Assembly: GCA_015501585.1 (NCBI GenBank)
Contig: JADNRY010000142.1
Location: 1-64,000, forward strand
DNA from: Rhodocollybia butyracea
Taxonomy: Eukaryota; Basidiomycota; Agaricomycetes; Agaricales; Omphalotaceae
DNA: 64,000 nucleotides
Direction of reading: 5' to 3'
Position numbers and translations under genes: made by a program. Shown piece after piece: positions 15,026 through 63,000 of this stretch. How positions within the stretch are numbered: the first letter of the stretch is position 1; each line of letters opens with the position of its first letter. Below the pieces are notes generated by a model. That model saw nothing but the letters and a program-made list of their open reading frames with translations, was not told the origin of the DNA and ran no database searches.

Positions 15026-16123
15026 GCTGAGAGTGGGAAGGATCGACTGGAGGCGTTAGCGCAGTCACCAACGATATAAGTATATCATGAACACGTTCCA
15101 AAGGCTTGATACGCTGTATGGAATGCACCAATGGAGCTGTATCCTGACTCTATCACTCTGATAGGAAGTTCACAGCCAGGCTACAGCATTGAAATTTGAC
15201 GTTAGTGGCACGTCTGATCATGAATTCATCTGATCATTCCTCTAAAGCGCCCTGCTTTTGCTGTTATCAACGTCATCTAAACTCATCCAGGGAAAAAACG
15301 GCCGCATAAGGGCATGGAAGTCAATTCATGACCTGAACACAAGCGCCTCGATTGGCCAAACCCTTGGTCTTTGACTTCTCTATTGACAATGTTAGCGCGT
15401 TATATGAGTACTATACCCCATGACCTTCCCACAACTCGATTGACTCCGACTCGGAAAAAGTTAGTATCAGCTTCTGGACTCTTACGAAATGAAAATATCG
15501 CCCCAACAGCATTCACCGAGGTACCCATTCATCCCAGCGCCCTGTTCGACAGTGCCCCATCTATTCCAGAAGAGGAAGAAATCCGTACTTTTTTCCAAAC
15601 AATGTCGCTGGGCCTGCGTGGTCGACACGCACAAGGAAAATAAAGAGTACTGAGGAGTACAAGAGCGAATGCTTCCTCCGGAATACGGGAAATGAAAAGC
15701 AACGAGATGGCTAGGTGTACGAGTAGTTTGGTAGCGGGGCTTAGGACAAGAGAAGGTCACTTTCTATGGGATTGATGGGACTCACTACGACGGTGCTCAA
15801 GCTCGTCAAAATACCGGAGCCCCTTCAACATCAATTCGCGTTCGAAACTGGCTTTTCTTGTTTCTTGGCACTAATTGTGTAGTCATAATCTGGTCCACTG
15901 CCCATGCAGCTCCGCTATATCCATCGCTGCTTTATCATGTCACGTTCCCGCTTACTTGTGGCTCAGGCTCACCACCACCGTTATCACCCAAGACAGTATC
16001 GGAACATAGTATACTCTCTCCCTCGCGCTCAACCGAAGACAACTTGAATCGATCTCCCCGTGTTGTCAGGAGGAAACCAGAGATGTTTGAGATCTTGGTT
16101 GGATAGGTTGTTGTGGTTCCGGT
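15026..16123. other. Intergenic; two weak plus-strand ORFs
   Basis: A 90-codon frame (15371-15643) and an 82-codon frame (15858-16106) are open on the plus strand, but I see no homology or consistent splicing between them. Bases 15026-15370 are the probable promoter region of the TPR-CHAT gene. Confidence 0.35.
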
Positions 16124-17114
16124 TTAACCATCATAGACGTTGCTCTCCTCTTCACCAGCATAAGGACCGGCCAGACCGGGAGTTTCTCGTATGAATGCGA
16201 TTGGATAAGAAGGTGTTAGTGTATTTGGTTGAGTGCAGGAGTGGTTGCAGGGATAGATGGAGCGTTCAAAGGGTTCAAAACGTTCAGGCCTAGCCTCAGA
16301 GGTGGTGGACGAACAGTGATTGTGGTTCTTAGTCGTAGGTTCTGGAATCGAAATAGGATCAGAAGCAGTTTCGCCATCGCCTTCTATGGCAGCAGGAACA
16401 AGAACAACAGGAGCCTATAAAAGTAGACCTAGGTAAAGTCGAAAGAACACTCACAACGATCCAGCCCTTACAGAGCATTACTCGACAACCCTGGAGCTTA
16501 AAAAGCACCCTGATGTGGATATCCGCGAGGGTTGTTTTTGTACGTCTTTGAGAAGTTCTGGATCGGTAGCCGTCAAACATTCAGTTTGAGTCGTCTATTG
16601 GGCCGTCGATTTCAGAAATCCATGTGTCTTCTGAGTCGATGGCTCGTTTAGGTGGTTCCACCGCAAGTTGTCTTTCCATGTTCAACGAAGGCCAAAGTCT
16701 GAGTCTTCTTCTCCTAGTGAGCTGGTCCAGGTTAGGCAAAATTCCGTTTTACTTTAATGATATCCTTATTTCGTGAATCCGACCGAAGTGATAGAGCAAG
16801 CTTGAAAAGATTTTGGCGCCTGACTGACTTTTGCCGCTGGTCGGACCGCCGGTCCCTTCGATAGTACGTCCTCCTTCGCGGTGGGCTAAGGTCCAAGTTT
16901 TCTCGAGCGGTTTCGGACCAGACTTGGCAAGACGCAGGAGCTTCTCAGAACATGTACTACCCGAGATTTATCGGGGTAAAGGGATATTGTTCGAAACTCC
17001 CTTTCGCACTTCCTGCCATCTTGTGATGTTCGTTGCTACAGGTGCTGATGAAAAACCTAAATTACGCCGGCGTTGTCTTGTCACAAACCTTGCCAGATCT
17101 CTTACATCTGACAT
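16124..17114 (-). pseudogene. Unknown spliced gene interrupted by an in-frame TGA
   Basis: From ATG 17114, exons 17114-16998, 16943-16753 and 16713-16455 join in one frame using introns of 54 and 39 bp; the 39-bp intron has a CTAAC branch point. A TGA at 16583-16581 then interrupts, giving a 146-residue product ending EIDGPIDDSN. The same frame stays open beyond it (MFDGYRSRTSQ...), crosses a textbook intron (donor GTGAGT at 16454, acceptor ending at 16415) and continues for 96 residues to TAA at 16124. The retained intron suggests one gene with a nonsense mutation, though two adjacent genes cannot be excluded. The protein is basic in its N-terminal half (RLAKSGPKPLEK, SLKRRRLRLW) and acidic/Pro-rich at its end. 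I recognise no domain. Confidence 0.45.
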
Positions 17115-18377
17115 CTATTCCCCCCATTGACCGATCCTCTCAGCGCTCACAACTATGTTCACGAACTGGTGGCACCAGGTGGAGGAGCTCTCTTCCGGTC
17201 TCTTCACTCTCAGCCGTCACCACTGAAGTAAGAGAGATTGGTCAAAGCGAGGACCGGTGGGTATTCCAGTTGGGTCCAATGTAGAAGTAGTAGTAAATCT
17301 CACTTCGAAGTATTAAACCTAAGAAGTGGCTAGAGAAGATAATAATAATAATAACACAAAGAGCTTAACACTTAGCTCAACACTTGTTGCACTCGCTGCA
17401 ACGTCGTATTCACACAATATAGGTCACAGAGTATAAGGATCGATTGGAGAAGGCTACTCTAGCTATAGATGCAGTACTACTAAAAATGTGGACTCTACCA
17501 ACGCCGTGAAACTTGGAGCTTGGGCAACGGTTTTCATGGCATGTCGGAATGGAGACACTGCGAACTTGAGCATCACCGCCGCACTCGACGCACAGCAGTT
17601 GACGAAGAAACGACCAGCTAAGCCCGATTAACAGTCTGGTTTGCTGATCTGTATGTCTTAGTTTCCACAATATATCTCAGTTTTCTGTCTGTTCTTTTCT
17701 TTTTTTGGCTAATTTTATAATATCTTCTGTACTATCTAGTTCTATTAGTTCACTATCGATGAGGAAGCGTCTCTGGCGAGACAAAAAGACCATAATCTCC
17801 CCTCAAGGCCGGTCAGTATTTTTCTCCTCTGGTGTTCATTGCATTTCTGCTGGATATTCTGTCATTTCGTTCTCCTCAACTACAGCCAGCTCTCTATTTT
17901 TAGAAACCGGCCGGGATTGATTCTTATCCGCCTGACATTTGCTTTTTGGTGTATACCAGTACTTTCTTAAGTTGCCGATGATTTTGTGCCTTGTAGAACT
18001 GCTTGTTAATCGAACCCGCTTATCCTGATCTAGGGCTTTACTAAAAATTCTCACCCTAGGAAGTCTAAGACTAGGAGACAGCAGTGAGTACTTCGACCTG
18101 GGAATTTTCACTCGTCAATTGACTTTGTCAATGATGATCCATCTGAAAGTCTCTCTTTTTCTCTTTTCCCACTTGATTCCCCCGGCTTCCGTCCATATCC
18201 CAAGTCAAAAACGAATCGGCATGTATATTTTACCCGCGACTTGATTCTAGCTTGTCCATAATGAGTGGTGCATCTTCTCACATCCAACTGATATCAGGAT
18301 TCAGGGTTCGGTCCAGTGTCCATAGTTATCCTTTCTTCCCTAACGGTCATTGACCTCTGAAGCTTTCCAAAGGCAAC
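17115..18377. other. Intergenic with weak minus-strand reading frames
   Basis: Minus-strand frames at 17836-18111 (basic, starting MKIPRSKYSLLSP) and about 17690-17810 (starting MVFLSRQRRFLIDSE) look mildly protein-like, but no complete model could be built. The final 250 bases are the likely promoter of the UstYa gene. Confidence 0.35.
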
Positions 18378-19362
18378 ATGTGGCTTTCCGCTAGACGACT
18401 CTTGGATTTTCAAACCACGAAAAGATCCAGCATCCCCTATGAACCTCTGGAGGTAAACCCCATCTCTCACTCTATAGGGACAACCAATGAGTCCCCTCCG
18501 TACATTATTTCGGCGAAAACACCGTGTTTCAAACAAGCTGCAACGCTTAGTGTTGTTTTTCTTGCTGGTATCATATCTGGATCGTTTGCTACTTGGATTC
18601 CTAGAAACTTGAGCTGGACTGACCCAAGGACAACACAATTACTCGTGTACTGTATGTTCAGGCATACTATCAAGAGACATCTCAAATCTGACTACATACC
18701 ACCTTAGCTCCTGCTCAAGGCAGCATACAATACGAAGTCCGCCAGTTCAACTCCTCTATCAGAAACGATACCACAGAGTATCAGGGTACACCCACCGAGG
18801 CACTGGATAGAAAATGGAAAGACCTGTACGAATGCACGTCTCTCGTCTCATTTTTTTTATTGGGCGACGTTCTGACAGGCACCATATGTAGTTGGGGTCA
18901 GCCAGATTTCAGAAAGCGAGGCAAATAACTTGGTTCATAAGACTGTTCGAATCCCAGGAGACGAGGAGTACTACATCACAAGCCTGGAGGTTTTTCACCA
19001 GCTTCACTGTTTGGTAAGCAGACTATCGCGTTCCTCCATCACTACTTACATCGTTTCACGTATTTTTGCGGTAGAATCTCCTCCGGAAATCACTGTACCC
19101 GGAATACTACCCCTTGACACCTGTTGACCATCTGGATCACTGTGTTGACACTCTTCGCCAAGCCCTCACATGTACAGTTGATATCAGCCCGCTGAGTTGG
19201 AAGTGGGATGAGCGACTTCATATAACGGAGCCACAGTTGAATGGCACTCATCAGTGCATGAATTTTACCAAGATTCAGGAATGGGCACATCATCATCAAC
19301 TCAAGTCAGAGTTCAACAACACAGTAAATTTAGACTTGGGCCTGGGCCATGAGGGGCATTAA
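18378..19362 (+). CDS. UstYa/DUF3328-family oxidase-like protein, 269 aa
   Basis: Exons are 18378-18651, 18708-18833, 18892-19013 and 19075-19362, 810 nt in frame. A cytosolic N-terminus with IPYEPLE precedes one transmembrane helix (about residues 54-74). The lumenal domain has the family hallmarks: YSPAQ, DLYEFGVSQISESEA, and two HxxHC motifs, HQLHC (169-173) and HLDHC (193-197), followed by a Trp-rich end (DISPLSWKW) and HQCMNF. UstYa proteins install oxidative crosslinks or hydroxylations on secretory-pathway RiPPs such as ustiloxin and asperipin-2a; some act elsewhere, as in cyclochlorotine biosynthesis. Intron 2 appears to use a GC-AG pair (donor GCACGT at 18834), since only that splice keeps both frame and the conserved sequence. 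The start is the first suitable ATG. Its partner is very likely the repeat precursor 760 bp downstream on the same strand. Confidence 0.88.
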
Positions 19363-20121
19363 AAGGTTATTTATGAAGTTACACGTCATGGGCCTGAGCC
19401 ATTATGGTAGTTTTTATATTCCGGCTGATTACAGCTTTTGAATCCCATGCTTTAAGCTTCATCACATTCTCAACACATTGAGATGCTGGTGAAAATTAGC
19501 CCGAGTCACCAAGTCAGGAACCCAATACCTGACACACTGAAAGGGGGACGAAAAATATCAGTAGACATACCAGCGATAGAAGATTCACGCATGTTCTGGG
19601 GCTGGCGACATGAACCAACCTGAGCGGATACAATAGTACCAGATGCGATGAGAGGGAATAACGATTCCACTAATGGGTAGATGCAAGTCTGCATGAATGA
19701 TGAGATAGATACCAAGATAGATCCAACTTTCTTTTGTCTGTATGGCAAGCTCCGCCCTAATATCATGGACAAAGATTATCAACGCGCGGGTAAATCTACA
19801 CGCTTTGACTCAGGACATGGATGGATCCGAGAGGTTATGGACAAGAATCGAGACACGAGAAGATATTTACCCATCTTTCACTTCCTGTTTGGCCTTTTGT
19901 ACCGATAGAGTAGATCCTGATAAAGATATGACTAGGCAAGGCACTAGATTATAGATATCCTCAGGCTACTATTTGCTAAAAAGTGGTTTCCTGATGAAAG
20001 TCAGTGGATCTTGGTCGGCCTCTGTGTCACAAGTCATTTTCTAAATGGTATAAAGGGTGACCAGAAAAGTCAAAGATGAGCCGTCTAACTCTTCATTGAA
20101 CCTGGCTTGGATTTGACAGCA
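19363..20121. other. Spacer between UstYa gene and peptide precursor
   Basis: No convincing gene was seen here. Short frames on both strands (for example 19585-19782 minus) lack domains. The last part is the promoter of the precursor gene. Confidence 0.5.
20049..20054 (+). promoter_or_regulatory. TATA box of the peptide precursor
   Basis: TATAAA lies in the context GGTATAAAGGG, 73 bp before the ATG at 20122. This is a plausible distance for a strongly transcribed fungal gene with a short leader. Confidence 0.55.
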
Positions 20122-20812
20122 ATGAAACTCACCACCTTCTCTGCTGTTCTTGTGCTTGCTGTCACTGCAAGTGCCCAACCAGTCATTCACATTGTGAGCC
20201 TTCAATTTGTCTTTTTTTCTAACTGAATCTCATTCATAAAGGCTCAGCGCGATGTCAATGACGGCGCTGCAAACCCAGACAGGGCATTTCCCGGTTGGAA
20301 TGTGAGACATTGCATTCTTAAGTTATGTTCAACTGATTGCGAGACTATTTGCAGAAAAGATCTTCGGATGTAGACGATGCTTTTCCTGGCTGGAACGTGA
20401 GTGATGTTTCTCCTGTGGTTAGCTCTATCCTTGATCACTGACTGGGAAACTATTCACAGAAAAGGTCTTCGGATGTAGACGATGCTTTTCCTGGCTGGAA
20501 CGTGAGTGATGTTTCTCCTGTGGTTAGCTCTATCCTTGATCACTGATTGGGAAACTATTCACAGAAAAGATCTTCGGATGTAGACGATGCTTTTCCTGGC
20601 TGGAACGTGAGTGATGTTTCTCCTGTGGTTAGCTCTATCCTTGATCACTGATGGGAAACTAATCACAGAAAAGATCTTCGGATGTAGACGATGCTTTTCC
20701 TGGCTGGAATGTGAGCGATGCTTCTCTTGTGCTTGCTTACGTTTGATGAACTGAGCGAAACACCTTGCAGAGAAGAGCAGACTCTGATACGGTATCAAAT
20801 ATACAACTATAG
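20122..20812 (+). CDS. RiPP-like precursor with Kex2-bounded repeat peptides, 113 aa
   Basis: Seven small exons: 20122-20193, 20242-20301, 20355-20396, 20460-20501, 20565-20606, 20669-20710 and 20771-20812, all phase 0. Exon 1 encodes a classic signal peptide (MKLTTFSAVLVLAVTASA). Exon 2 holds a diverged copy ending DRAFPGWN. Exons 3-6 each encode exactly KRSSDVDDAFPGWN, and exon 7 begins RR and ends ADSDTVSNIQL. KR/RR sites would let Kex2 release four identical 12-mers in the Golgi. Repeated core peptides behind a signal peptide beside a UstYa gene define dikaritins (ustiloxin, phomopsin, asperipin-2a, epichloecyclin precursors). AFPGWN is the part shared by the diverged and identical copies, so it is the likely core; the Phe and Trp are candidate sites for UstYa crosslinking (inference). 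Alternatively this is a non-modified Kex2-processed peptide, like pheromones or KEP proteins. Confidence 0.87.
20355..20710 (+). repeat. Tandem exon-plus-intron units, 105 bp
   Basis: Four 42-bp exons are nearly identical in DNA (AAAAGATCTTCGGATGTAGA at the start of the first; AGG in place of AGA in the second; final AAT in place of AAC in the fourth). The introns after the first three are 63, 63 and 62 bp and also nearly identical, so the duplicated unit is exon plus intron (105/105/104 bp). The intron after the fourth exon has diverged. Confidence 0.95.
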
Positions 20813-21214
20813 GCACTTCAAGTCGGCGGACCCTTTTTAGTCTGATGCAGTCAAAACATACACATCCGATGCATCTTGGCTCCGGAAGGACGACCAGAGT
20901 GCGAATGTTCTCACTCCCTGTTGGTTAGGTTGAACGTATATTGTTAGTGCTACGGAATTGAGTTAGTTTCGGTCTTCTCTCTTTAACCAAATAAAACCTT
21001 CTTTCCTTCCTTCCTTCTGGTCCAAGTTCTGGTCAGCTGTTCATCTCAATTGATTTTCTTACTCATACTAATGTCGTCGTCTGTGACCAACAATAACAAC
21101 ATAATCTAAAGCTCTGGTTCTGATTCATCGATTCTACTTGTATGTATCGTACATCATCAAACTACACCTGTGTTGATCAGTTGAAGGCCTCTCGCACTGA
21201 GCAAACTTGAAATT
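20813..21214. other. 3' region of precursor gene; CTTC microsatellite
   Basis: No coding feature was seen. A short run of CTTC repeats lies at about 21000-21020. This is the convergent end between the peptide precursor and the AAA+ gene. Confidence 0.5.
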
Positions 21215-24200
21215 TCAGAAGACATAGTGGCATCCTTTTTGCGGAACACGGACTGTAATAAATTTATTTAGTCAAGCGGGATAACCATAAAGAAATAATG
21301 CGATATGTACCAAGCGGATTCTCCTTTGCCATGTCGATATCGCCAGCAGCATTGATAAACAGATGAACAAGCCAACTATTGGCATAATTTTTGTCAGGAA
21401 TAACTCGCAGACAGATAAACTCGGCAACGTACTTATCTCGAATATCTCCCCGGATCTGCGATTCAGCAAATATTTGGATGGCAAGTGTTTGTACTTCGTT
21501 CGTGATGGAACGTGCACCAAAGTTGACATCGTAGCCTTCGGCTAGTCTGTCGACGACTATCGTCGCAAAAAGTTCAAGTCAGAGATTAGAATAAGAATTG
21601 CGTCGAGGACGGATCGATACTCACCTTTGGGTGACCAAGATAGCCTAATCGCATGTCGCTCTTCAGCTCGTTTCTTCCACTTTTTTAACTCGGTCTCGAC
21701 GATTTGAGTTATCTAGTAGTAAACACCAAGTCAACACTGAATCCCTGATATCGTAATCGCTTTCATTAAATACTCACCTCTTGGTGGTTGAAAGGCAAGA
21801 AGACCACAGTCTGATTGATCCGGCCAAGAAACTCGTCCCTCTTGAACGAACTCTTCAGGATGGGGTAAAGCTGCCGGGTGAATTGCGCAATTCCCTTGAC
21901 ATACTGCTCATGCCGTTCTTCAGTCTCTGCGACAAGTTTGTGGAGCATAGGTGCCGCGGCCCTAATCGCCTCTGAGCCCAGGTTGGAGGTCATAATGAAC
22001 ACCGCTTCTTTGCAGTAGATCGTACCGAGCTGGGTGGGGTGAAAATGAGGGCCTAGCGAATAAAAGGTGTCATACCTTGGGATCTGTTATCCTTCCGTCG
22101 TCGAAGACTTGGAGGAAAACGGTCAAGACATTGGGGTGCGCTTTTTCGATTTCATCTAAGAGGACGATAGCTTTAGGATTAGCCTTCAGTTTCTTTGTTA
22201 AGATGCCCCCCTCCTCGTAGCCCTACCACAACGGTGAGCCCCAGAACCGTAGCGATGACGACTGAAATAACATACCACATAACCTTTGGGCGAGCCTGAG
22301 TACCGTTACGAGGGAAGAGTCAGCATGTATCTGATTCAGAGACGAGGACCACGACATACCCGTTAGGTTCGATACTGTGTGACTGTGTTGGTACTCGGAC
22401 ATGTCGATTCGCACAAACGCCCCAGACTTTTCAATCTCCGTGAGTGATTGACCGAAGGAAGATTTCTCTTGACTCTTGTCTTGGTGAAGGAAATACGTGA
22501 GGCGTTTTGCCAGTTCTGTTTTGCCTATGCCGGAGCTTCCGAGGAAGAGCATGACGAGGGGACGATCGGGGTCTACCCAGCCGTTCTCGCGCAGGCGGAT
22601 GGCGGACGCGATAGACCGAATTGGTCCCCTCTGTCCGATCATCTGGTCCCCGACGATTTTCTCGATCTTGACTATGAGGTTATTAAGATTAGCAAGTAGT
22701 TTGTTGAGCTAAGGACGGAAAACAGCTCACGGTGTCGAATGCGTAATTCGTCTTTTTCTCGAAGCTTTCTCTGCTTCTGCTCCTCCTCTCTTTCAGCTAT
22801 GAGAGTTCTGTAGGTACGATTCGTTGAAGTGAATACAAAAAAACACTTACCTTGTAACTTGCGCAAATCTTGTTGTGCTTGTAGTAATCTCTTCTTCTCT
22901 TCCTCCTTCTGTAGCTCTCGTTTCTTCTGCTCCTCCAATTCCTTCTCAAGTTTCTTCTTTTCTGCCTCCCTCTCGACCTCAGCTGTTACATCAGAAGAGA
23001 TTGGTAAATACGGTTGGTTACGGCAAAGAGAGAAACCACTTACCGAGTTTTTTGCGTAACTCTTCGTTCTGTAGCTTCTTCTTCTCGCCCTCTTTTTCTG
23101 CTTTACGCTTCAACCTCTCTAACTTAACTTTCTCCTTCTCGCGATCCGTCTCTAGCGCTTCTGCGAAACTCCCAGCCCACTTCAACTCCTCCTCTTCTCG
23201 ACGTATCGACTTTTCCTCCTCGCACAGAGACTCGAACTCCTTCACTTTACTATCACCATTAACGCTCGCATAGTTCTCAGGAAGATGCTCGTTGCTGTCG
23301 AATACTGTCCACTCCGCCCCATTCCTCAGAAGTACTTTCACAACCTCCATGTTACCCAATAAACACGCATAGTGAAGAGGCGTCGATCCACGCTTCTGAA
23401 AAATATCCAACTGCGGGGAAATAAGGTTCATATTGCCGGGTTGACGATCCACGAGTGCCGTTTCCAGAACGGTCAGTACAGCTGGATGGTTACCACAAGC
23501 TAATTCCGGCTTCGCGTTAAGAATCCTGCAATGCGGAGTGAATTGATAAAGTTTGACCATAATCAAGGATGATACGCACTCTTTACAGTACTCATAGTCT
23601 CCTTCGCGTATAGCACAACAGAGAACGGTCATATCTGAAAAGAACATTTAGCTAGCACGCATCGAGGTCATATATATATATTGCACCTTTTTTCGCTAGT
23701 GCGCGCCAGCGCATGTACCACGCCTGGGAAGCAACATGGTACGCCTTGAAAGTATCTACATTCACCCGTTCCAAATCAAAGTAGTCTAATGGTAGCTTTT
23801 GTGCGCCGTCTCGCACATCATGCGCGACATGTGTATTTAAGAGCAGGTTCAAGACCTCCAGGTCACCCCGCATGCAGGCGAAATGCAATGCAGTGGCACC
23901 GTGCGTGTTTTGCGTTCCACATATAGTCGGACAAAACTCTTGGTGTCGACAGAGAATATCGGTGTCGGGAGATGTAACGGAGAAGGTGGAGCTATCCTTG
24001 ATGGTGATATCGATACCTGGCAGGTCCAAAACAAACTTTACTAGGGAGGGGTCTCCGCATAGAACGACGGCATGTAGTGGCGCCCAGCCGAGAGGATGGC
24101 GAGTGTTGATGAGAGCGGGGGAGATTTCCAGGAGCCTATACGGATTCAAGTTTACAATGTCATATGGTATATGTAGAGATAAAGACATACTGTCGAGCAC

Positions 24201-24312
24201 GATTGAAGTCACGATTGACAAAGGTTCTGCACAGACCGCGACTTCCTGCTACAACCAATGGAGTTTGCATGATGTGTGGACAGAGATAGGATTCGCGAGT
24301 GATTGTGGACAT
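21215..24312 (-). CDS. Ankyrin-AAA+ disaggregase, CLPB/SKD3 type
   Basis: This multi-exon gene starts at ATG 24312 ([14 protein letters not shown]) and ends at TGA 21215. Order: ankyrin repeats ([60 protein letters not shown]), a long Lys/Glu-rich coiled coil (24-kb side of 22670-23270), then one AAA+ domain. The AAA+ part has Walker [15 protein letters not shown], the pore-loop region SPKGYVGYEEGG, Walker [15 protein letters not shown], sensor 1 IMTSNLGS, Arg-finger region [11 protein letters not shown], and the ClpB C-terminal domain ([29 protein letters not shown]). One AAA+ module after ankyrins is the architecture of animal CLPB/SKD3, a mitochondrial intermembrane-space disaggregase, rather than of two-module Hsp104/Hsp78. 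No obvious mitochondrial presequence is visible. Neighbouring the RiPP locus is probably chance. Confidence 0.88.
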
Positions 24313-26498
24313 ATTTCTCGATTATAAATCTAAAGGGACGCGATGGTCACCGTGGAATATGAATAGCGAGATATAGACAAACGACACGTCTGAGAGCAGG
24401 GTGAGTGAGTGCCACTGAGACTGTAGAAGCTTGAATTTTTAAGCCCTACCTGAGAACGAGTTAAACAAGGGAATTGAACTTGTCGTATTCGCTGCTCTCT
24501 GGTTTTTATGTTGCGATAAATAGGGGGTAAACGAACCGAGAAATGAGACATGGCGGTGCTCGAACCAAGGGAAAGAGGTTGTTCGAGTCATACGCGCAAC
24601 ACTTGCGAGAAGTTTCCCGCTTGGAATAGCCGCCCATACTTAAGCGGCAATTGATTTTGGCGCACGTTTTTCTACACGCCTTTGTTGTGACTCAGGTGGT
24701 TTTCTGGCATGTTACTGTATGTACTAAAGACGACATTTATCGGTGTTGCCCCCTTTTGCGGGTTAAACGTTACGCGTTAAACCTGTACAGCGATTGTACA
24801 GCGATCCAAGGTCGGGATACACAATAAGGCCAGTTCTGCTTGGATGTACTTATCTTTTGGTCAATACCAGCCAAGATTTGAGCGCACCTTTCTCAACAGG
24901 ATTCACGTCATACCAAATGGAGTTGTGAAGCGAGCGAGTCGACTATCATCCTAGCCAAAACCATCTACACATCTACAATCAAAAACCTCCCTTCAAAGCT
25001 CCAAAGCTTCATCATTACACATGCCGCTCCTCAAGGCCTCATTAACATTGGCCTCACCTTCGCGTACTCGACCGCACTCCATCCGAACTTTGCTACGCTC
25101 CTTCACACGTCCGCTAAGAGCTACCTACTGCTCATCTACAGACGGAAATTTTAATCGGTGGTGGCTCCTATTTCGTATCCAGCGACTCTTCGCCCACCAA
25201 ATTACCGCGAGGTCCAATCTGATCCAATAAACCCCCGATTTGATTTGCTGATATAGAACTAGATAGAGCCCGGGGCCAGCTCCGTTTCTGACATCCATCG
25301 TGATAAGTTCCGAATCCAAGTTTTCGGGATTGTTTGGAACTTCACGAAGGGTCTAGGTAGTCGTTTCTGCTATTCGGTTGTTGGTTCCTGTTAATAAACA
25401 TATCACCTTCGAACTTCTCAGCAGCCGACCTCATTCTCATTCACAGCAGGCTATTCTTGTACATCGCCGCCCTCACCATCAAGATGGAAAAACTCATAGA
25501 CCTCCTGCATAATATATTGCTAACGTGAAAATGTAACCCTAAACTGCAGCTTCTTCCAGGTGTCTGATAGCTCTGATCGGGCCTGTTCACTGCTCTTCAG
25601 TACTGTGTTTGAAGCTCAAAGCTGCTATGGTACAAGTAGAAGACAGTACACCTATTATATTAGATGTGATGATGTAACTATTTCACTCACTAAATCCAAA
25701 ACGCCAAAATTGCCCCTGAACGCAATTCAAAAAAAAAAAAACTAAAGCCCTCCGAGTCGGAGAGGCACAACATAAACACGTAAATCCTACCTGCTTCGGG
25801 GGGATTATCGCTTCATTCCATATCTCCTTCTGTCCATTTCACACTGGTGACTTATTCCCAACTTCACTTCCTCTGACTCAAACAGTCAACAAACGATATC
25901 TTCTCTCGCGTGTCTTTTTCCCGATGTCGATGTCGATGTCAACGATTTCGTACCCATAATGTCCGCACTAATCGACCCAGGGCCATTCAAAAGTGTGACG
26001 ACGAGAGAGGTAGTTCTGGGACACGCGTTGACTTGCCCTGAGGTTGTGTCAAGGATGCTTTCGAGTTGTTTTAATTCTCCGAGTGGCAAAACGAAAGGCC
26101 AAAGTAGGTTCATTTTTCTCAGTGGGTCTGAGATTCCATATTAAGCGAGGTTTGCGCGTTGATAAATAGTGGGACGTCAAAGAAAATGAGGCAGGCAAAA
26201 GCTTGTCTGATTGACGGGTATGCTTCTGAAGCTTGTTCGTGCAGAGGCATCGATTAAGCTGATTGCGGACAAGGAGCGGGTGTATTTGAGGGCAGTTATT
26301 GAGCAATAATTGTTGTGGGCGGTATAAAAGGGGGATGAGGACTTTCTGTGTTATCAAGTTGAGTGAAGATGGATCCGCCTCATACTTGTCCCCGAGATTC
26401 ATATCCGGTTTCGCCGGCTCCTGGAAAGGCCAGTGCTCGCTGATCTGATCATATCGTGGAGTTCGTCCAAGGAAGATTTCGCTTTCCCAATTTACACG
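24313..26498. other. Gene-poor stretch with small ORFs
   Basis: A plus-strand 69-codon frame at 25021-25230 starts with an Arg/Ser/Thr-rich, presequence-like segment, but the other two frames there are equally open, so I do not call it a gene. Minus-strand frames at 25886-26113 and 26049-26402 overlap, with no domain. AT-rich leader-like DNA lies at about 26290-26330. Confidence 0.35.
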
Positions 26499-26818
26499 CT
26501 ATATTTTGTACTTGAACTTCCCAAACTTCGTGTAGAGGTAGACCGGTCGGACGCACCCAGAAAGAGGTACGGTGGACGATGAATCGGGTAGATCGGGATA
26601 GTCTGGGGTATTCACATTGATGTTCCGTGTATGATATATGATATCTTGGGCAATGAGTGTAACTGACGGCAGGGATCGATGAGTCGCAGAGCAGTGGTAC
26701 ATCGACGGTACATAGTAATTTTGGAATAGTTGAAGGAAATGACGCGGCGAGGTACGCCTTCTGGCGTTCTTGATTCATCCAACTTCACCCTACCGACCTG
26801 GCCAGTGAGTTGCACCAT
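26499..26818 (-). CDS. Possible small two-exon protein, 93 aa
   Basis: Exon 1 (26818-26701, starting MVQLTGQVGRVKLDESRTPE) and exon 2 (26662-26499) join in frame across a 38-bp GT-AG intron to give 93 residues ending TKFGKFKYKI. The start vaguely recalls OB-fold single-stranded-DNA-binding proteins (GVPRRVISFNYSK), but this is too weak for a name. An upstream minus frame at 26895-27158 (MLSRLRLVQNSDYP, with one hydrophobic stretch) could be a separate small gene or an earlier exon. Confidence 0.33.
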
Positions 26819-27253
26819 ATCCCCTTAAAAGCGTCCTCTAAAGCCTCTTGACCCAGAATAACAACGAGTATCAGCTTATGGTCCCGGTTCAGACCTAAGG
26901 ATGAAAAAGGGCGATGGCATTTTTTGAGACAAAGGTATCCGTCGGTGTTGTCTGGAGTAAGACGATAATGACAATGAGGCTCTGGATCCAGGCCAGCGGT
27001 CGAGATCGCGACTTTTTTCTTTGATTCAGTTTGGTGGCCAGTTGAGAACTTACAAGTGGAACAAATCGAGCTTGTGAGCCTCGAATCATATTTTTGCGAG
27101 GGTAGATCCTGTAACTTGGATAGTCAGAGTTTTGGACAAGGCGTAGCCGGGAAAGCACGAAGAAAAAAAGCCTTCAATACCGTCATTGCTTCAATTTTTT
27201 GGAGTTGCCAAGACGATTTGACAATAACTGTAAGCGCCCGTGATCATCGGCGC
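26819..27253. other. Spacer up to the transposon
   Basis: It contains the short minus frame 26895-27158 noted above. No supported feature otherwise. Confidence 0.35.
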
Positions 27254-27256
27254 TTA

Positions 27257-28550
27257 CACCGGGGGCAAGGACCGGCGCAGTTGATTTCCCACTGCCATTA
27301 ACGCAGTGGTCAACGCAGGGGGTAACGCAGTTGACTTTTTGATGATGTCATTCTATTGAAACGGCGTCCCGGCATTGATGCCTCATTGATATACCTGATG
27401 GATCTTTCCCACCGCAACATTATAAGTGATCGTACACTACTTCTCTCTTCTCGCTTATTTCTCATTCCAAAATATAGCAACATGTTTGCATTTACTACTA
27501 TTAGTGTAGAACCAAGCAATTCACTGTATGCAACGTTGACTAACCAGGTTGTTGAGCCTGGTGCTGCAACACAGCATCTGCATCGAGTCCTCAGTCAACA
27601 GAAAGCAATCAAGGCAAAATCAAGGTGTTTGCAAGGTCTGTGAGCTAGCAGCAACAGAAGGCCCAGCCTTTAATGCCAACGTCCGAGACACCCTTTTGCT
27701 TCTTTTGTTGCATCCTAATTATTTGACAGCTTGCTGCAATTGATACTCCAATTGTCAAGCTCTTGCTTATTTGGCTCAATCTTATGCTGTCAGCCAGCAT
27801 AGTGGACTGCAAATACTATTCTCAAAGGTGTGCAGCTCATCCTTATAATTGCTTGGCAGTGGAGTAAGAAGGCTGGAGAGCACAATGGTAAACAGCCCAT
27901 ATTGGACTTGCTGTGAGCTCATTATTTGAGACTGATACTAGATCTTGCATCTTTGACATTATATAGACTACTATACCACTACTATATGGTACCTTTTTAC
28001 TAGCCATGAAGCCCCTTGGTTCCATGTCCTCTTGAATGATTAAGATCGCAGAAATAATCATTTATTGACATTGATATTTAGAAAAACTCTCGAAGGAACT
28101 TTTATCTGGATAGATACTGTAGATGTTTCGTTGACCAAAAGTTGGAGGATACACTTCCTTGTTCATGTGGTATAAGGAAGAACATTGAAGATAAGGTGTT
28201 ATTTGGTCACGGTGGTGGGAAAGAATTGGGCGCCATCCGGTATATGGACGCCGTAATCATCAATGGCTAGATTCTGGTGTTTCTCCAACGCTACAGGGCT
28301 TAACAGTAGATGTAAACACAGATTGCCATGCCTTGAGGTGGGACATAAATGAGAAGTAGTGGTGCGCAACTTTGCGGCACTACAATGCAGTGGGAAAGAC
28401 TCATCGGGTATCAATTCGGCACCAATCAAAGGTGCATTCACTGGCCGGCACTCCAATTCAATAGAATGACATCACCAAAAAAAATCGACTGCGTTGACCA
28501 CTGCGTTAATGGCAGTGGGAAATCAACTGCGCCGGTCCTTGCCCCCGGTG
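27257..28550. mobile_element. Non-autonomous DNA transposon with long TIRs, 1294 bp
   Basis: Both ends begin, reading inward, with CACCGGGGGCAAGGACCGGC and are identical for about 62 bp. Weaker inverted similarity continues to about 27370 and 28440. TTA flanks each side (27254-27256 and 28551-28553) as a 3-bp target duplication. A 3-bp TWA duplication is typical of PIF/Harbinger; the CAC start also fits EnSpm/CACTA. The interior has only short frames (longest about 95 codons) with no transposase signature, so it would need a transposase in trans. The perfect outer TIRs suggest recent activity. Confidence 0.85.
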
Positions 28551-28553
28551 TTA

Positions 28554-31500
28554 TCACACCAGGCTTCATACTAAGTCTGCGAGACTGACCTGGCACAACG
28601 CATCTCGCAGATTCATTGTCAAAAGTGCAGGCCAGTAAAAAATTACCTGCAGGTCTGTGTATGCATGAGCGCTTGAGCACCGTGACGGACTAAAGTACTA
28701 ACGGGTTAAGTACGAAATTAATGTGTAAGTACATGCGCAATTGAGGGGTACTATCAAGGTACTATGACGGAGGGGGGGCTGAGTGCGCATTGAGCTCCAC
28801 AAAGCTTTGAACTTCCCAGATGGCTCCTATCGCGTAAATACTCAACCTATCCCCGACATCAAGCCCGACATATCTACATGATGGACTTCGAATCGTCAAC
28901 TCGAAGTAGAGGTTACTCAAGACGTTGACCATGGACGGTCCCACTGGGGAGGCTGCTAAACCTGCTAAGCCCCTGTGGATTATAATCTCGGACCCAGTAC
29001 ACCCTTCCTCGACCACTTCTCTAATTTTGTGTTTGGAAGGCCTCGGAGTACAGTCGGAACTAGCCTTTCCGACTGACCAGTATCTGCATTCTTCATCTCT
29101 CTACCCTCTAGCGTTTTATCAGTTTCTAATGATATCCAGAAGTCTAACTTCTTAATCTCGCCGCGTCATACAAAGTCCTGCCATATCCGCGTCTCTGGAG
29201 TCCGCAGTATATAGACAAATCTTCTCAGTTCTACTATTCTTATTCCGTGGTAGGTGTGCGACAGATGTGATGATCTATGTCACCTAACGATAAGTTATCT
29301 TACGTGCTATTAGAGTAGAAAAGGTTTCGATGTATACATGCAGAATCACCCAAACTTTAAAGTGCTTACTCTCATTCGAACTCACTGGGCAGATGTTTTA
29401 ACCGATGATTCTGACTCCATCGTCCCACTGAGTGAAGAAATACAAAACCCTCAAAGCTACGAATGTGAACACCATCTGCAATGTCAAACTCGAAGGATGT
29501 GTTCCGAACCTTTTCTTCGATATCCTCTGGAATTCATGCTTCTCTGATCGGCATACTGGTTTACGATGGAGCTTGATTACGCTACGGTGATCGCGAGAAG
29601 CTTTTTGCGGACTTGAGAGGCTGGGAGCAAGATGCCAGCCGGTAAGACAGTAATAGCGCTCTACTGCTACCGAAACTAAAAAAACGTAGTTGTTTAGCCT
29701 CCTAATAATACCCATAAAATTAATTTGTGCTAAAACCTCGGACATTTTGGGCGATGATGTGCTGTGACATACAAACCTCCAAAATCTATCTAGATTAATC
29801 ATTATGCTTTCCAGGTTCTGGTAATGTTCGCAGGAATGAAATCATAGTCGGCTCCTACTACCAGAACTTTGCCGCTTCCATATCTAACGCTCCGAATATA
29901 TCTATGATGAGGGTCAGCAAGGTAGGCGATGGAACGCTCAGAGCTGAACGTGGGTCGCTTCTTTCAGTGCGCCCGGTCTATATTGCTGCTTCCTCCCAAA
30001 CGCAGTGGAATTATATCTGAATCTATTATCTGAGAGCATGGCGATGGATACGCTTCGTTAATGTGATGTATATCTTCGCCGACAGGTCGTTTCCACTTGG
30101 TAACAGTAATCATGGTTGAAGCCCCTAATAATATGATCAAACCATGTATGTGCGTTGAACTTGTAGCATGTGTACAAGCAGGCCAATGAACAGGCCCCAG
30201 GCTAAAGAGATGGGGAAGAGAAGCCAGGAAACATGTCAGTTTCGCTGTTGTTACATTGGTTGTGAATATGTAGCTAGGCTTCGACTTGGAAGTGGGTTCC
30301 AGAAAAGTATATCTATAGCGCCATAGTCAATAATATTTGACTTTTTCGGGAAGGGGGAAGAAAAAAGCACCGCAGAATTATGCTTTCCTCTCCGGAGTGC
30401 GTGGAGTAAGAACAGAAAGAGGAGTAGGAAGAGCAGTGGTAGTCGCTCAGCGCACTCGTTCCGTATCTATTATCCGATGTTGTGAACTGTTAGTATCGTT
30501 ACCTTTCGATCTACCAGAATCACCAAGATCCCTTCTACAAGTGTCTGGTGAGCTTCCACGGACTCCAAGTTGACCCATAAAATGGTCGACAGATTTGTAA
30601 CTTGACCTGTTAATTTTGTCATGAAAAACAGAGAACGTACGTTTTGTGCGTTTTGGTTCGGAAACTTTAAGGTTCTCCCGCGTTAGAACCTAGCCCAATG
30701 CTTCTGTTTGTCATCTGCTCCCTTGGAGTTCATGGCGTTGAGCAGTGAGACGAAAGTCAAAGGTCGCTGCCGTACGCATTAAACTCGTGGGAAGATGCCG
30801 CTCTTTTCCGGCATGAACCAAGCCGCGTTTTGCCTCTCTGCCAAATGGGCTCAGCCGAACCCTCTCTCTCAAACCTCCCAATCAGTCAACAGTCTGGAAC
30901 TCAGAATGAATATCATAGAACGTACTTATGTCTCAATGGGAAATGGTAATGAATGCGGTCCTCGCGAGAGGATATCTCTAGGTTTAGACAAAGTTTGGAC
31001 AAAGTTTAGAGCCATGCCAAGATGCCAGTCAACATGACAGGTCGTACTGTATATTCATTACTCCCGAAACAGAAGATGATCCCTTCCTAGCACACCTATA
31101 TCGACAAATTTACCTGTGCTGGGAGCCAGGGACTGAGTCTCCAAGTCGTCAAAATCCAGATTGGGGGCTGGCTTCGCAGATCAGCATTTCTAGGCTGACC
31201 ACCATATTTGGATGAAGAATATTGGTGACGCTCTGTGACCTAGAGCTCAAAACTAACCGCGGACTTTTCTCGGCATGTGAGGCTGTTTATATCTTCGTCT
31301 CTTTAATTTCCGAGTCCAGGGGATTCGAGATTGATATTGAACATGTACCTGATCTCAGCCTGAGCGTGATCATCAGATGCGTACAAATACCGACATGTTC
31401 TTATAGTCTCGCGGTCCCAGCGCGGAAGCGGTGAGGCTTGAGCTGGTTTGGTTTAGTACCGCGACTACGAATGAGAGGATGAGACGTCTCATACTAGAGA

Positions 31501-45482: not shown

Positions 45483-48400
45483 ATGTCTTCAGAGAGCATG
45501 CTCTTTGAATCTACCGACGGTACTCAGCTCCAAACTGGGAGCTCTTTCTTCTACAACTCCACTCTCAACTCTTCAATTACCTTTCCAATGTCCAAAACAA
45601 CTGACTCCTCTGTTTCTGGCTCCCAACTCCAATTTGAGACTACACCTAGCTCTCCTGCGAGTAAACGACGTCGAATAGGCTCTGGGCCATCAAACCTTAC
45701 TGCTGAATCCTCCCTGTCTTTCAATGATGAAGGGCCCGGTGACTCAATCCAAACGGAGGTGTCCCCATCTCTGAGCGCAGGTGACATTGTCTCCTTGCAG
45801 AGTGAATTAGATCATGAGGAAGATAACCTTGATCTCGAAACTCACGCTAACCGACTTGCTATGCAAAGGGCAATGCAGGCTGCAAATTTGAAGAAGGACA
45901 ACTACACTCGGCATGTTCTAAAATACATGTCCTGGACTGATGTTGAAGGCAAACATCGTGCTCTTGAAAATCCAACACGGAGATTCAAACTCACTGCAGA
46001 GCCTATCACTGTGGCCAAGGTTGCTCTTTTCCTAGAATATGAAACCAAGCGTGCAAAGGTCAGTTTTTTTGGCTGTAGATTCAATATGATACTCATAAAT
46101 GAACAGGCTAACAGCGGCACTGGTACTGTTGGTGCTGAATCCGTTAGCCAGACCATCAGTGCACTTGAAAACCATCGTGTCAACCATCAACATGAGAAGG
46201 TCTACCGGGACTGTCTTGAGTCTCAGAAGCCTCTTCGAAGTGATCGTCGGGTTACGACTTTTGAGAAATTTGCTCATCGCAATGAGCATCTTTGGGCCAG
46301 CAACGGAGAAAAGATGAAGACACAAGGACCAGTGTCCGGTACGTTCTAATTGATTTCTCAGTTAGTTTCTCCTTGTGCTTATTTTGCATTTTCAGCGAGC
46401 TACACACCGGCACAATTGAAACAACTCTCGGTTTCAGCTCTTCAGCCAGCACGCAAAACCCGCATTTCTACTGCCAAGAGTCTTCGAGATCGTGCTATCA
46501 TTCTATTATGTTCGACAATGGCTTTTCGGGGGGATTCCGTTCGTGGGCTAGAAATCTCTGACCTAGGGGTAGAAGATTTGCCCATGCCTGCTATAGCACC
46601 GGGTGTGACCGTAAAGGTGTGTTTCAATGAACAAAACTCTATCTTTATTTTATTTAGCTTTTTCTAGACTCTGATTGCCTTTTGTGATAACGGAAAGCAC
46701 AACAAAGAGGGTCGCATAGAAAAGCATGCGGCTTTTCGACATCTACATCCAGAAATGTGCGCCATCGGGGCTCTCGCGTTCTATTTCTTCAGCGAATATC
46801 ACATCTTGGGCAAATCTCCACCAAACTTTGCCCCCGATTTTGATGACCCAGATGCTTCTGAGCTTGGTCGGCGGGATTAATGGAAACATCTTCTTTTCCC
46901 TGGCAGCAAGGGCCCAACAGCTGAGATGTCATACAATAGTATGTTACTTTTACAAATTCATTAGAACATTTCTAACACCTCTTAAGATCATCGGCTTCGT
47001 ACTAACGCATTGTACCATTCCAATAATATCCATATCTCGTCTGTAACCCATGGTGGCCGTCATTATGTTCCGAAAACTGCAGGTGATAATCGCGCTTCTC
47101 TGGAAGGCCGAAAAGCACTAGGAAAGTGGAAAGAGGGGCGCGGGGCATTCGAGAATGCTTATGATGATCAAGTTCCTATTGACGCTATGCTGGGTGTAGC
47201 TATGTTTGATGCGCAACGCCCAGACAGCTACACATGCTCACGGAACTGTCTCCAGCCTCCACCGGAACTACTGGAGGCGTTGTTCCCCTGGGTGGAGGAC
47301 AAGATGAAGGTTTTCGAAAATCGGCGCAAAGATTTTGGAAAGCGGGCTGAGGACTACTCTCTCGACCAGTTTCTCAATCTTCTAGTCTATCTCCGCTCAG
47401 TTCTTCTTCAAGACGCAGCTCTCATATTTGCTGAATTTCCAGCATGTCATGTCTTCACATTTGCACCTTTTAATTCCTCAGTATTTCAAGACTGGGCACA
47501 AAACTCCCGGGCAATTGTCGATTCTGCCGAGGCTGAAGCTCGCGAGGCATTTAAAAATATTCCAACTAATCTTATCTCTTCTCTCCGTGGCATCCTTGTC
47601 ACAGAGAGAATTGAGTCTGAACGCCGACACCAATCTCTTCATCAGGAACTTCTTTCAGCTGTCTCTCTGAATGTACTACCAGCTACCAAGAACAAATCTC
47701 GGAAACGGAAACGCAAGATAAGCAGTACGTTATTCATCTGTTATTTCTTTATTTCTTATTCATTTCACTATTTAGCTACAGAGCCTTTGGCAGCAAATAT
47801 TAACACTTCAAATACTCACTCTTCAGTTTACCCTCCACTACCTAGTATACAAGTGCCAGTTCAACCTCCAGTTTGTGAATCCGAAACTCTACCTTCGACT
47901 GTACTGAAATCGACAAACACGATATCTCCACCTTCATCCGATTCTCTTGGGCTCATTTCATCAACTGTGGGTTCAATTACCACTACTATCCCCTCCACCA
48001 TACTCAATCCTGGAATAACCGCCCCAACTGCAGCCCCGCCGATGTATTCCGAGGAGCAAGCATCTGTGGATATGCTCAGGCAGAGGTACAGTGAGGTGAA
48101 GTATACGAAGCATGAGCTTTGGGAATGGGACCGGGAACGCAAGGAGCACCTACCATCTTACCAGTACCAGAAGCCTTCGACACTTTGTGCATACTGGGAG
48201 GAGTTAACTGTAGGCTTGAATGGATATATTTCAGTCCAGGAGCTCAATAATCGCTGGGAGGCTCAATGGCGGCGCAATATCAGCGGTTTGAAAACAGAAA
48301 AGTGCCGCTATGATCGAGTAGAAGAGCTAATCCAAAAGCTACGGTCGCGTGATAACTGGACAATGGACTTGGTTTGGCGTTTCCTTGATGCCCGTTTTCC

Positions 48401-48518
48401 TATCCCTACAAAAGACGTTCCGCATTTGAGAACAGCGAGAAGCTTTATTACTTATATTCAAAAGAAGGATGGTTCTGGAATGAACGAAGTACTTACTGCA
48501 GCCAATTCTTACTGTTAA
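45483..48518 (+). pseudogene. Crypton-type tyrosine recombinase (Ndc10-like plus GCR1_C) with one internal stop
   Basis: Exons 45483-46058, 46107-46338, 46396-46616, 46668-46938, 46987-47724 and 47776-48518 join in frame. Conserved parts: N-terminal helical region (KDNYTRHVLKYMSWTD), box-I Arg in TMAFRGDSVRGLEISDL, HxxR in SSVTHGGRHYVPKTAG, and the catalytic-Tyr region GAFENAYDDQVPIDAMLGVA, then LQPPPELLEALFPWVEDK. The end (YWEELTVGLNGYISVQELNN, WRRNI) looks like the GCR1_C DNA-binding domain. Cryptons move via such recombinases without terminal inverted repeats. A TAA at 46878-46880 replaces one residue in an otherwise conserved stretch (GRRD stop WKHLLFPGSKGPT), so this copy looks recently inactivated. 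Intron 46059-46106 is a multiple of three and could be retained. Confidence 0.78.
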
Positions 48519-60072: not shown

Positions 60073-63000
60073 CATAAACCTTTTTCCAGCAACCTTCCCA
60101 GTTTTTGCCATATGTGAAATTACTATAGTCAATTTGTAGTGCAGAGTTTGTGGCATCAGCTGGCATAGTGAAAATCTGTTGGTGATTAGTAGCTCCAAAT
60201 CTGTACTGAGATGGGAGCCAAAACAAAAGATGGCCTTCAGATGATACCACCCAACCTCGCATATCAAGATAGACACTGGAAGGCAAAATGGAGCATGAGT
60301 GGCCATATATAGGCTCTGCTACAGCTTGCCCTGCTACAGCTTTCCAGATTCTCACTGTATGATAGGAACCAGAAACAATATTTTTCTCATCTGAAGGCAA
60401 AGGAGATGACAGAACTGAATGGGTTTGGCCCTTTAGTGAATCTCCTAGTGACTGTGCTATTGCTATTTCTGTGCTCCAGACTCTCACTGTCTGATCCCCA
60501 GAACCAGACACAAAATGTGTTCCATCTGGAGAGCAGGAAACTGACTGAACCCAATCAGTATGGCCTTTCAATGGATTCCCTACTGGATACCCAGTTACTA
60601 CATTCCAGATCCTCAATGTATGATCTCTGGAACTGGATACAATATGCACTCCATCTGGAAAACAGGCAACTGACTGGACACAATCAGTATGCCCTCTTAA
60701 AGGATGCCTTATAGGCCGCCCTGTTTTTGCATCCCATATTCTCACTGTCTTATCCTTGGAACCAGACACAATGTATTTTCCATCCGGGGAGCATGCAACT
60801 GACTGAATCCAATCAGTATGTCCCTTCAATGGGTCTCTCATTGGCTTCCCTGTTTCTGTGTTCCAGATTCTCAATGTCTGATCCCTAGAACCTGACACAA
60901 TGTATTTTCCATCGGCAAAGAAAGCAACTGACTCAACCCAGCCAGTGTGCCCCTTAAATGGCTCTCTTGCAAGCTGTCCTGTATCTGTATTCCATATTCT
61001 GACTGTCCGATCACTTGAACCAGACACAATTTGCTTTCCATCTGGCGAATAAGCAACTGACTGAACCCAATCAGTATGTCCTATTAATGGCATTCCTACT
61101 GACTTTCCAGTGTGTGTATCCCATATCCTTACTGTTCGGTCCCTGGAGCCAGATGCGATATAGTTTTGATCTGGAGAGTAAGCAACTGACTCAATCCAGT
61201 TGGTGTGCCCCATTAATGACTGACCTACTGGGATCCCAGCCTCTCCATCCCAGAATCTTATACTAAAATCCAAGGAACCGGATACAATGTGTCTCCCATC
61301 TGGAGCATATGCAACTGAGTGGATCCAATCAGTATGGCTGCTTAATGTATTTGATATAATTTGTGGCTGTACTGTCTCTGCATTCCAGATTCTCACTGTC
61401 CGATCCCTGGAGCCAGACATAATATGTTTTCCATCGGGAGAGTATACAACTGACCAAACTGACCGGGTATGTCCCTTTAATGGCTCTCCTGCTAGCAACC
61501 CAGTTTTTGCATCCCATATTCTGACTGTTTGATCACCAGAACCAGACACAATATATTTTCCATTGGGGGAGTAAGCAAGGGACAGAACTGAATGTGTATG
61601 CCCATGCAATGGCTCTCCTACTGGCTGCCCAGTTACTGCATCCCATATTCTTATTTTCTGATCCCTGGAACCAGACACAATATGTTGGCCATTTGGAGAG
61701 TATGCTACTGACTCAACTGAGTGAGTATGTCCTTTCAATGGTTTTCCAACTAGCTGTCCAGTTTTTGCATCCCAAATTCTCACTGTCTCATCCCTGGAAC
61801 CAGACACTATGTGTTTTCCATCTGGAGAGTATGCAACTGATGTAACTGAATTAGCATGACCTTTTAATGGACCTCCTATAGGCTGCCCTGTTATTGCGCT
61901 CCATATCAGAACTGTCGAATCTCTAGAACCAGACACAATGTGTTTCCCATCTGGAGAGTAAACAGCTGCCTGAACCCAGTCAGTGTGCTTCTTTAATAGA
62001 TTTCCAACAGGCTGCCCTGTCTCTGTGTCCCATATTCTCACTGTCTGATCCCTGGAGCCAGATACAATCTGTTTACCGTCAGGAGAATAGGCAACTGACT
62101 GAACCCAATCAGTATGTCCCATCAGTGGCTCCCTTACTGGCTGTCCAGTTTCTGCATTCCAGATTCTCACTGTCTGGTCTCTGGAACCTGTTACAATATG
62201 TTTTCCATCTGGAGAGTAACTGGCACTATCAACTGCACTATCAAGTGGGATTTGGTTAATTTCGGAAGCCCAATATCTATGCTTTCCTTCCTGTTTAATT
62301 CTAATCACGTTCTTCAGAAAGCCATGGAGATGGTGATATAATAAAGTGTTTTCTGGGATCATTGCCAGTGCACTTTGATATAAGTGTGGAGTGCTATAGG
62401 CAATTGGGAAATAAAATGTCCGGACAAATTTTGCAATATCAATGGCAGCTTCAGGTATTTTGAGGTCAGAATGCTGCAATGAATTGGTTAGATGCCACAT
62501 ATCAATATTTAACTGCGGAGTGTGCTCAATGCTCATACCTTCCACTTTGTCTGATCTGACAAGTTGTCCATGCTATCACGGATCTGAGATGTTCTTCCCA
62601 TCAAGCTCAAGCATTCCATCCAGTACATAATCTTTTCACCAGTCATCAACTGTACTACTTGGTTCAGCACTGTGTGATCCACATTGTCTGTCATACAAAG
62701 ATGGTGAACCCAGCTTTCACAAGAATACTGAAGCTCCTCCGAAATATACTTTTCCACTCGTTCTCCTAATCTAGGGTTCGATATGAATTCATTCGGAATA
62801 CAAGAATCTTCCAGATAACAAATATTGAATCTCAACTGAGACATCAACACTTTCAAGCAAGCAGTTGTAAGAAACATGTGTTGTTCTTTTAGATTTATGT
62901 TAAACCCTCTTTTTACTCCTTCATCCTGAATGAATTCTTTGAATGATAAATGGTACTTGAGTTTTCCATCTCCACTCTTGTAAATTACTGCACCTAGGGA

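Follow-up and report, generated by a model that had tools for sequence, protein, structure and literature searches.

A UstYa-family gene beside a one-repeat-per-exon precursor gene in the mushroom Rhodocollybia butyracea: a candidate dikaritin-like peptide locus

Do mushrooms make peptides of the dikaritin kind, that is, ribosomally synthesized and post-translationally modified peptides (RiPPs) in which UstYa-family (DUF3328) proteins act on repeats released from a precursor by Kex2? The question is raised by two adjacent genes of Rhodocollybia butyracea, an agaric of the family Omphalotaceae, in a window of 64,000 nucleotides (the whole stretch analysed; positions 1 to 64,000 of JADNRY010000142.1, assembly GCA_015501585.1) that sits in contig C431 of the 95.6 Mb, 1381-contig assembly. 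A genome paper gives the strain as AH 40177 (PMC8480192), which is probably the source of this assembly. The original prediction read the two genes as a minimal RiPP locus and held that the known systems of this type are all from ascomycetes. For characterised products this stands, and our literature search, which had most subscription journals outside its reach, returned no characterised basidiomycete UstYa RiPP. Basidiomycete pairs had already been counted, however: a DUF3328 gene lies within 15 genes of 103 of 1680 predicted basidiomycete repeat precursors (Umemura 2020, PMC7329392; here and throughout, cited papers are represented by the parts of their text available to us), the share of DUF3328-linked precursors being 6.1% in Basidiomycota versus 30.1% in Ascomycota. 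The pairing is already predicted for basidiomycetes, and the window pair is a variant of it. For Basidiomycota, that survey put forward two possibilities, a different cyclisation factor or a cyclisation that “might hardly occur” (PMC7329392). In the mushroom Pleurotus ostreatus, the family of UstYa-like genes (16 members, 6 of them developmentally expressed) has been called probably involved in dikaritin production, in passages that give no precursor for it (eLife 2022, PMC8893723).

The upstream gene has four exons (ATG at 18378, stop at 19362) and encodes 269 amino acids that match the Pfam UstYa profile PF11807 (DUF3328) with 168.5 bits and E=2.7e-49, against a curated cut-off of 25 bits. 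Its two expected HxxHC motifs (HQLHC, amino acids 169–173, and HLDHC, amino acids 193–197) are invariant among the 56 relatives aligned, out of 108 found, and the single membrane helix claimed for it appears in Kyte-Doolittle hydropathy as one hydrophobic stretch at about amino acids 54–75. The NCBI protein BDP27DRAFT_1231783 of R. butyracea is 97% identical to it over 66% of its length. We rejected the GT-AG second intron of the NCBI model, the product of which reads LYECTQISE in the public partial protein P0001, because a GC-AG intron at 18834–18891 yields LYEFGVSQISESEA and so matches the relatives better, which read, for example, LYRYGISQISGSEA and LYDFGISRIPASAA. A Lentinula guzmanii model (P0007) carries an insertion at the site matching this GC-AG intron. 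In a monomer model of the partial protein P0001 (predicted local distance difference test score 86), the HxxHC motifs fall in helices 74–88 and 99–116; the PDB held nothing convincing by sequence for the UstYa protein (best E 0.13) and no match by fold for the model of P0001 at E≤0.001. Judged from CctR, a homodimer with O2-dependent activity, DUF3328 proteins are membrane-anchored, dimeric dicopper oxidases with one membrane helix and essential His/Cys motifs (PMC12435403), and we propose that the window UstYa would be a membrane-anchored, lumen-facing binuclear copper oxidase.

The precursor gene begins downstream on the same strand after 759 bp, close to the 760 bp first estimated. It encodes 113 amino acids (ATG at 20122, stop at 20812) with the structure MKLTTFSAVLVLAVTASAQPVIHIAQRDVNDGAANPDRAFPGWN-(KRSSDVDDAFPGWN)x4-RRADSDTVSNIQL, that is, a signal-like start, which by inspection resembles a typical signal peptide, a diverged unit, four identical units KR-SSDVDDAFPGWN as originally described, and a tail. 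The identical units are led by KR and the tail is preceded by RR, so that dibasic Kex2-type sites lie between the repeats. All seven exons are in phase 0 (72, 60, 42, 42, 42, 42 and 42 nt) and each identical unit occupies a 42-nt exon of its own; the 105-nt period of the underlying DNA array (Tandem Repeats Finder score 716, 3.8 copies, more than expected by chance) corresponds to exon plus intron. Without splicing, the three forward frames of the region contain 9, 17 and 9 stops, whereas the spliced exons can be read through in frame.

The four identical-unit exons are mutually 95–100% identical. Because the first three of the introns behind them are 97–98% alike, with the last one 70–71% identical to these, the exon-intron cassette has spread recently. 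Compared with the first three identical units, the AFPGWN codons of the diverged unit differ at four third positions, and compared with the fourth, which ends in AAT, at three, all of these differences being synonymous; as 11 of the 54 possible single changes in AFPGWN are synonymous, four such changes have a probability of (11/54)^4 = 0.0017. This synonymous-only divergence marks AFPGWN as the selected part.

The pair is not alone in its genome. Searched with the UstYa profile, the whole assembly yielded 18 matches, which we grouped into 10 distinct loci by merging exons and contigs that look allelic, and 13 ten-kb stretches around the other UstYa loci were scanned for repeated dibasic units. 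A Kex2-type repeat precursor lies at most 2 kb from a UstYa profile match at six of the 10 loci, namely the window and those on contigs C1160 (same protein in C305), C517, C427 (C509), C921 (C1161) and C14, and spliced precursor models close in frame for C1160, C305, C517, C427, C509 and C14. Were 22 precursors placed randomly in 47.8 Mb, a density borrowed from Coprinopsis cinerea, for which a section heading counts 22 precursors (PMC9769878), six or more of 10 loci would be so paired with a probability of 2e-12. The motif TATA[AT]A stands at -60 to -84 in all six UstYa-linked precursors, against a background of 192 of 2554 150-nt segments of the window. The idea of a UstYa/Kex2-repeat RiPP pair is thus well supported by a similar neighbour at most UstYa loci of the same genome, and chance proximity of the two genes was rejected on this count.

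Three of the precursors (window, C1160 and C14) form a Trp family: most of their units combine an acidic D-x-D stretch with a Trp close to the C-terminus. The window member reads DVDDAFPGWN-KR; the C1160 units read GVDTDKEANPGGDIWN-KR, GADFDEAAGPSDQTWN-KR and AAGPSDQTWN-KR, with one ending in WI-KR and one lacking Trp (GAGFDDGPSDSSTKS-KR), and those of C14 read EVDLDVADGSATTIW, GEVDMDAAAANGPDTFW and GEVDTDVVGANGPDSWW. A joint query built from these three precursors found only the window, C1160, C14 and C305 in the assembly at E≤10. With alignment blocks joined by eye, the UstYa proteins of C1160 and C14 are 61% identical, and that of the window is 43% and 39% identical to them and 71% to Lentinula, so that the window pair was not copied recently from the others. 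The C1160/C305 precursor (scanned sequences L020/L022; minus strand, about 3373–4018 in L020, UstYa on the other strand) has five one-unit exons, four ending in W-N-KR or W-I-KR, and that of C14 (L032, 6744–7262) has three units (EVDxD...W), each in a phase-1 exon of its own, and is encoded on the other strand from the UstYa gene at L032 4960–5085. The precursor of C517 (L021, 6609–7615) has five one-unit exons reading KRD...FAK(K/V)AW(E/G)AE in phase 2, with the nearby UstYa on the other strand.

A different core is found in C427 and C509, whose precursors each hold 13 units of DRKGYDIT-GGDVE, one per exon, with KR, RR and some QR borders. Tyr and Ile of YDIT stand at the positions they hold in the YAIG of ustiloxin and the YVIP of phomopsin (cores quoted in PMC7329392). 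Exon lengths come in a different order in the two copies, consistent with whole cassettes having been gained and lost between haplotypes. This precursor (L030/L031; minus strand, about 1830–3294 in L030) adjoins a divergent UstYa; C24 (L051) carries a diverged and apparently partly decayed duplicate of the C427 precursor and of the 3' portion of the UstYa next to it, to which a weak match at C1161:81537 corresponds. In C921 (L025, 3988–4614) and C1161 (L028, 5684–6102), a SDAEDGETLTSLVDF-RR array lies in one exon beside two UstYa genes; owing to a one-base spacing difference, the C921 copy runs into a premature stop at a point where that of C1161 reads on.

One repeat per exon is the arrangement in five of the six UstYa-linked precursors, C921 being the exception. 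A linear-type precursor (PMC9769878) is built otherwise in this genome, with all repeats in one exon (C495) or one open frame (C939), and neither contig has a UstYa match; by our arithmetic, the association of exon design with UstYa linkage (5/6 versus 0/2) is not significant (Fisher P ~0.1). The literature search, with the reach given above, found no report of one-repeat-per-exon precursors. An exon-repeat finder was applied to 24 sequences (the 13 UstYa stretches, the window and 10 others; 510,378 strand-bases, a thin background) and matched L020, L021, L022, L032 and the window, with one false place in the lysine-rich L039; it does not detect precursors in which KR falls in mid-exon (C427/C509) or whose repeats share a single exon (C921/C1161, C495, C939). 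Other pairs of dibasic repeats were judged non-precursor (plus strand of L022, L027 and L029, minus strand of L043, and repeats at the start of L025), and further ones were dismissed as wrong-frame or wrong-strand echoes of true arrays or, on the window minus strand, as lysine-rich and WD40-type places.

Both gene structures, their motifs and proximity, the recurrence in the genome and the synonymous-only divergence of the core are direct observations, beside which we infer transcription of the precursor, Kex2 cleavage, action of the UstYa on this peptide and the oxidation chemistry. We consider it likely that the two genes form a dikaritin-like RiPP pair: Kex2 would release 12-mers, and UstYa would oxidise them, probably at Trp. 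The precursor would enter the secretory pathway, Kex2 would cut behind KR/RR and a Kex1-type carboxypeptidase would trim the basic residues, so that each chain would release four SSDVDDAFPGWN 12-mers and one related peptide. The adjacent UstYa would then oxidise within AFPGWN, most likely at Trp, by crosslinking, desaturation or hydroxylation, and the acidic SSDVDD stretch would serve recognition and later be removed or kept. This processing is proposed because CctR is a dicopper oxidase, because one Kex2-type convertase gene was found in the assembly (C1), and because each core of UstA, the ustiloxin precursor, is bordered by ED and KR, with 13/14-mers as the presumed released peptides (PMC6514808).

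The ustiloxin system of Aspergillus flavus (ustA, ustYa, ustYb, ustQ) resembles the window locus in its signal-like start, in repeats of comparable length bounded by KR, in a short core with acidic residues on its flanks and in a UstYa-family neighbour. It differs in having 16 repeats, the Tyr core YAIG, two UstY genes, and a tyrosinase with further enzymes (PMC6514808), whereas the window has the core AFPGWN, one UstYa and no tyrosinase near. Asperipin-2a (aprA, aprY, aprR, aprT) shares the single UstYa-family gene and the hexapeptide core, which in asperipin is FYYTGY with Tyr ethers; its cluster also contains a reductase and a transporter (PMC6514808), which leaves the suggestion that UstYa acts alone, as in the asperipin type, an analogy. 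Among surveyed precursors, type P-3 (Fonsecaea, Cladophialophora, Galerina, Psilocybe, Coprinellus), with DUF3328 in four of seven cases and W accompanied by P (PMC7329392), is like the window core in its published description.

Several observations weigh against the proposed pathway. The core offers Phe and Trp and has no Tyr, the linked residue in ustiloxin, phomopsin and asperipin, although Tyr, present in 65.6% of the repeat sequences of DUF3328-linked precursors, is usual and not required (PMC7329392). The scans gave no precursor at four of the 10 UstYa loci (two on C827, one on C223, and one on C921/C1161, where a second UstYa lies about 6 kb away from the first), and the sequences of the six precursors differ among themselves. 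Linear repeat-precursor peptides that end in Trp, such as SGVAADW, have been detected in mushrooms (PMC9769878). Among 5.8 billion proteins, the window precursor matched at E≤10 only P0109 (E=5.4e-3), a 100-amino-acid metagenome protein with PGWNKRPVDV repeats, and a query of the aligned window and C1160 precursors matched nothing at E≤10, so that neither search gave a convincing relative that would speak for conservation of the gene pair in other species.

The closest alternative is oxidation without a crosslink, in which UstYa would hydroxylate or desaturate one of the AFPGWN residues to give a linear product. It is nested within the preferred reading, so that the two probabilities overlap, and we regard it as quite possible, at somewhat less than even weight. 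DUF3328 enzymes include a hydroxylase (CctR) and a halogenase (PMC12435403), the title of a cited paper credits UstYa-family proteins with the dehydroamino acids of phomopsins, and AFPGWN has no Tyr for the known ether links; on the other hand, AprY of asperipin, a single UstYa-family protein, performs sequential macrocyclisation (PMC6514808). Given a functional pair, we hold a side-chain crosslink involving Trp and its absence to be about equally probable. Of the cyclic or crosslinked AFPGWN product first predicted, the pair stands, and the crosslink is inferred, DUF3328 proteins also hydroxylating and halogenating; we use the label dikaritin-like rather than dikaritin.

An improbable explanation is that the precursor gives signalling peptides of the alpha-pheromone-like class of agarics, linear and without modification, and that the UstYa neighbour has another substrate. 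Such peptides share with the window precursor the signal-peptide-like start, the dibasic sites and a Trp near the C-terminus, and were found linear and minimally modified (Vogt 2022, PMC9769878); an R. butyracea homologue of one of their precursors, noted in the same paper, was located here at C495 and C939. Moreover, 17 of 76 basidiomycete pheromone-like precursors also had DUF3328 within 15 genes (PMC7329392), so that such a neighbour alone is no proof of modification. However, some of these peptides carry XA/XP motifs, dipeptides that mark the alpha-pheromone-like type, whereas in all four identical window units KR is followed by SS, and the single-exon or open-frame repeats of C495 and C939 lack the UstYa pairing seen at six of the 10 loci.

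A relic, with expression lost or the pair left behind as a hemizygous remnant, seems less probable still. The flanks of the locus match other contigs at 98–99% (C864 up to window position 15143, C1079 from 28632), the second haplotype is unassembled across 15143–28632, and the precursor lacks a convincing relative in the protein collection; against this, the reading frame and the splice sites are undamaged, a TATA box is present, and core changes are only synonymous. The allelic contig C864 ends inside a high-copy element (about 40 further assembly matches, 93–100% identical) that starts opposite window position 15143 (L043 1–3585), and identical haplotypes may have collapsed. A pseudogene was rejected on the intact frames and the synonymous-only core changes.

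The exon design may hide such precursor genes from annotation-based surveys. High intron density hampers the finding of basidiomycete RiPP genes without transcripts (PMC9233826, review), the survey of PMC7329392 began from annotated proteins, and the window precursor, with one repeat per exon, is outside the protein collection while the UstYa of the same contig is present, which fits annotation loss of tiny exons. More tentatively, and with appreciable doubt, we suggest that mushrooms have a largely unseen class of UstYa-processed Trp-core peptides whose genes grow by duplication of exon-intron cassettes, each copy a phase-symmetric mini-exon, and which annotation-based surveys have missed. 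If so, peptide copies could be added, lost or splice-skipped without a frame break, and the apparent rarity of DUF3328-linked precursors in Basidiomycota would be partly explained. The one-repeat-per-exon design offers a specific reason why annotation may overlook such genes, and symmetric-phase mini-exons beside UstYa are offered as a search rule. The six pairs of this genome, with a Y-D-I-T core and a Tyr-free Trp family among them, open the question of cyclisation in Basidiomycota to direct testing, and if UstYa crosslinks Trp here, the known chemistry of copper peptide cyclases widens.

Table 1. Positions of the UstYa and precursor gene features in the 64,000-nt window
Feature	Position	Strand	Basis or remark
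UstYa exon 1 (N-terminus and hydrophobic helix, ~aa 54-75)	18378..18651	+	spliced model
UstYa exon 2 (SPAQ...DLYE)	18708..18833	+	spliced model; followed by the GC-AG intron 18834-18891
UstYa exon 3 (first copper motif HQLHC)	18892..19013	+	spliced model
UstYa exon 4 (second motif HLDHC, conserved Cys, stop)	19075..19362	+	spliced model, profile match
TATA box TATAAAGG	20049..20056	+	73 nt upstream of precursor ATG
Precursor exon 1, signal-peptide-like MKLTTFSAVLVLAVTASAQPVIHI	20122..20193	+	signal peptide judged by inspection
Precursor exon 2, diverged unit AQRDVNDGAANPDRAFPGWN	20242..20301	+	alternative acceptor possible 6 nt downstream
105-nt tandem array (exon+intron)	20332..20731	+	Tandem Repeats Finder
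Precursor exon 3, KRSSDVDDAFPGWN	20355..20396	+	spliced model
Precursor exon 4, KRSSDVDDAFPGWN	20460..20501	+	spliced model
Precursor exon 5, KRSSDVDDAFPGWN	20565..20606	+	spliced model
Precursor exon 6, KRSSDVDDAFPGWN	20669..20710	+	spliced model
Precursor exon 7, tail RRADSDTVSNIQL and stop	20771..20812	+	spliced model

The surroundings of the pair agree with the prediction that no tyrosinase, methyltransferase or P450 lies close by. The only tyrosinase matches of the assembly are on C805 and C179, with none near the gene pair, and no cytochrome P450, methyltransferase or transporter was found by Pfam in the 40 of 91 open reading frames of the window that were scanned, a scan that short exons may escape. 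It placed an HhH-GPD repair protein and CHAT and TPR proteins upstream of the pair, and AAA and ankyrin-repeat proteins downstream, with an NDC10-type domain at 46986–48515. A many-copy element (73–99% identity in the assembly) occupies 27257–28551 and stops just short of 28632, where C1079 resumes. At 60482–62219, there is a large tandem array of period 129, which we take to be WD40-like.

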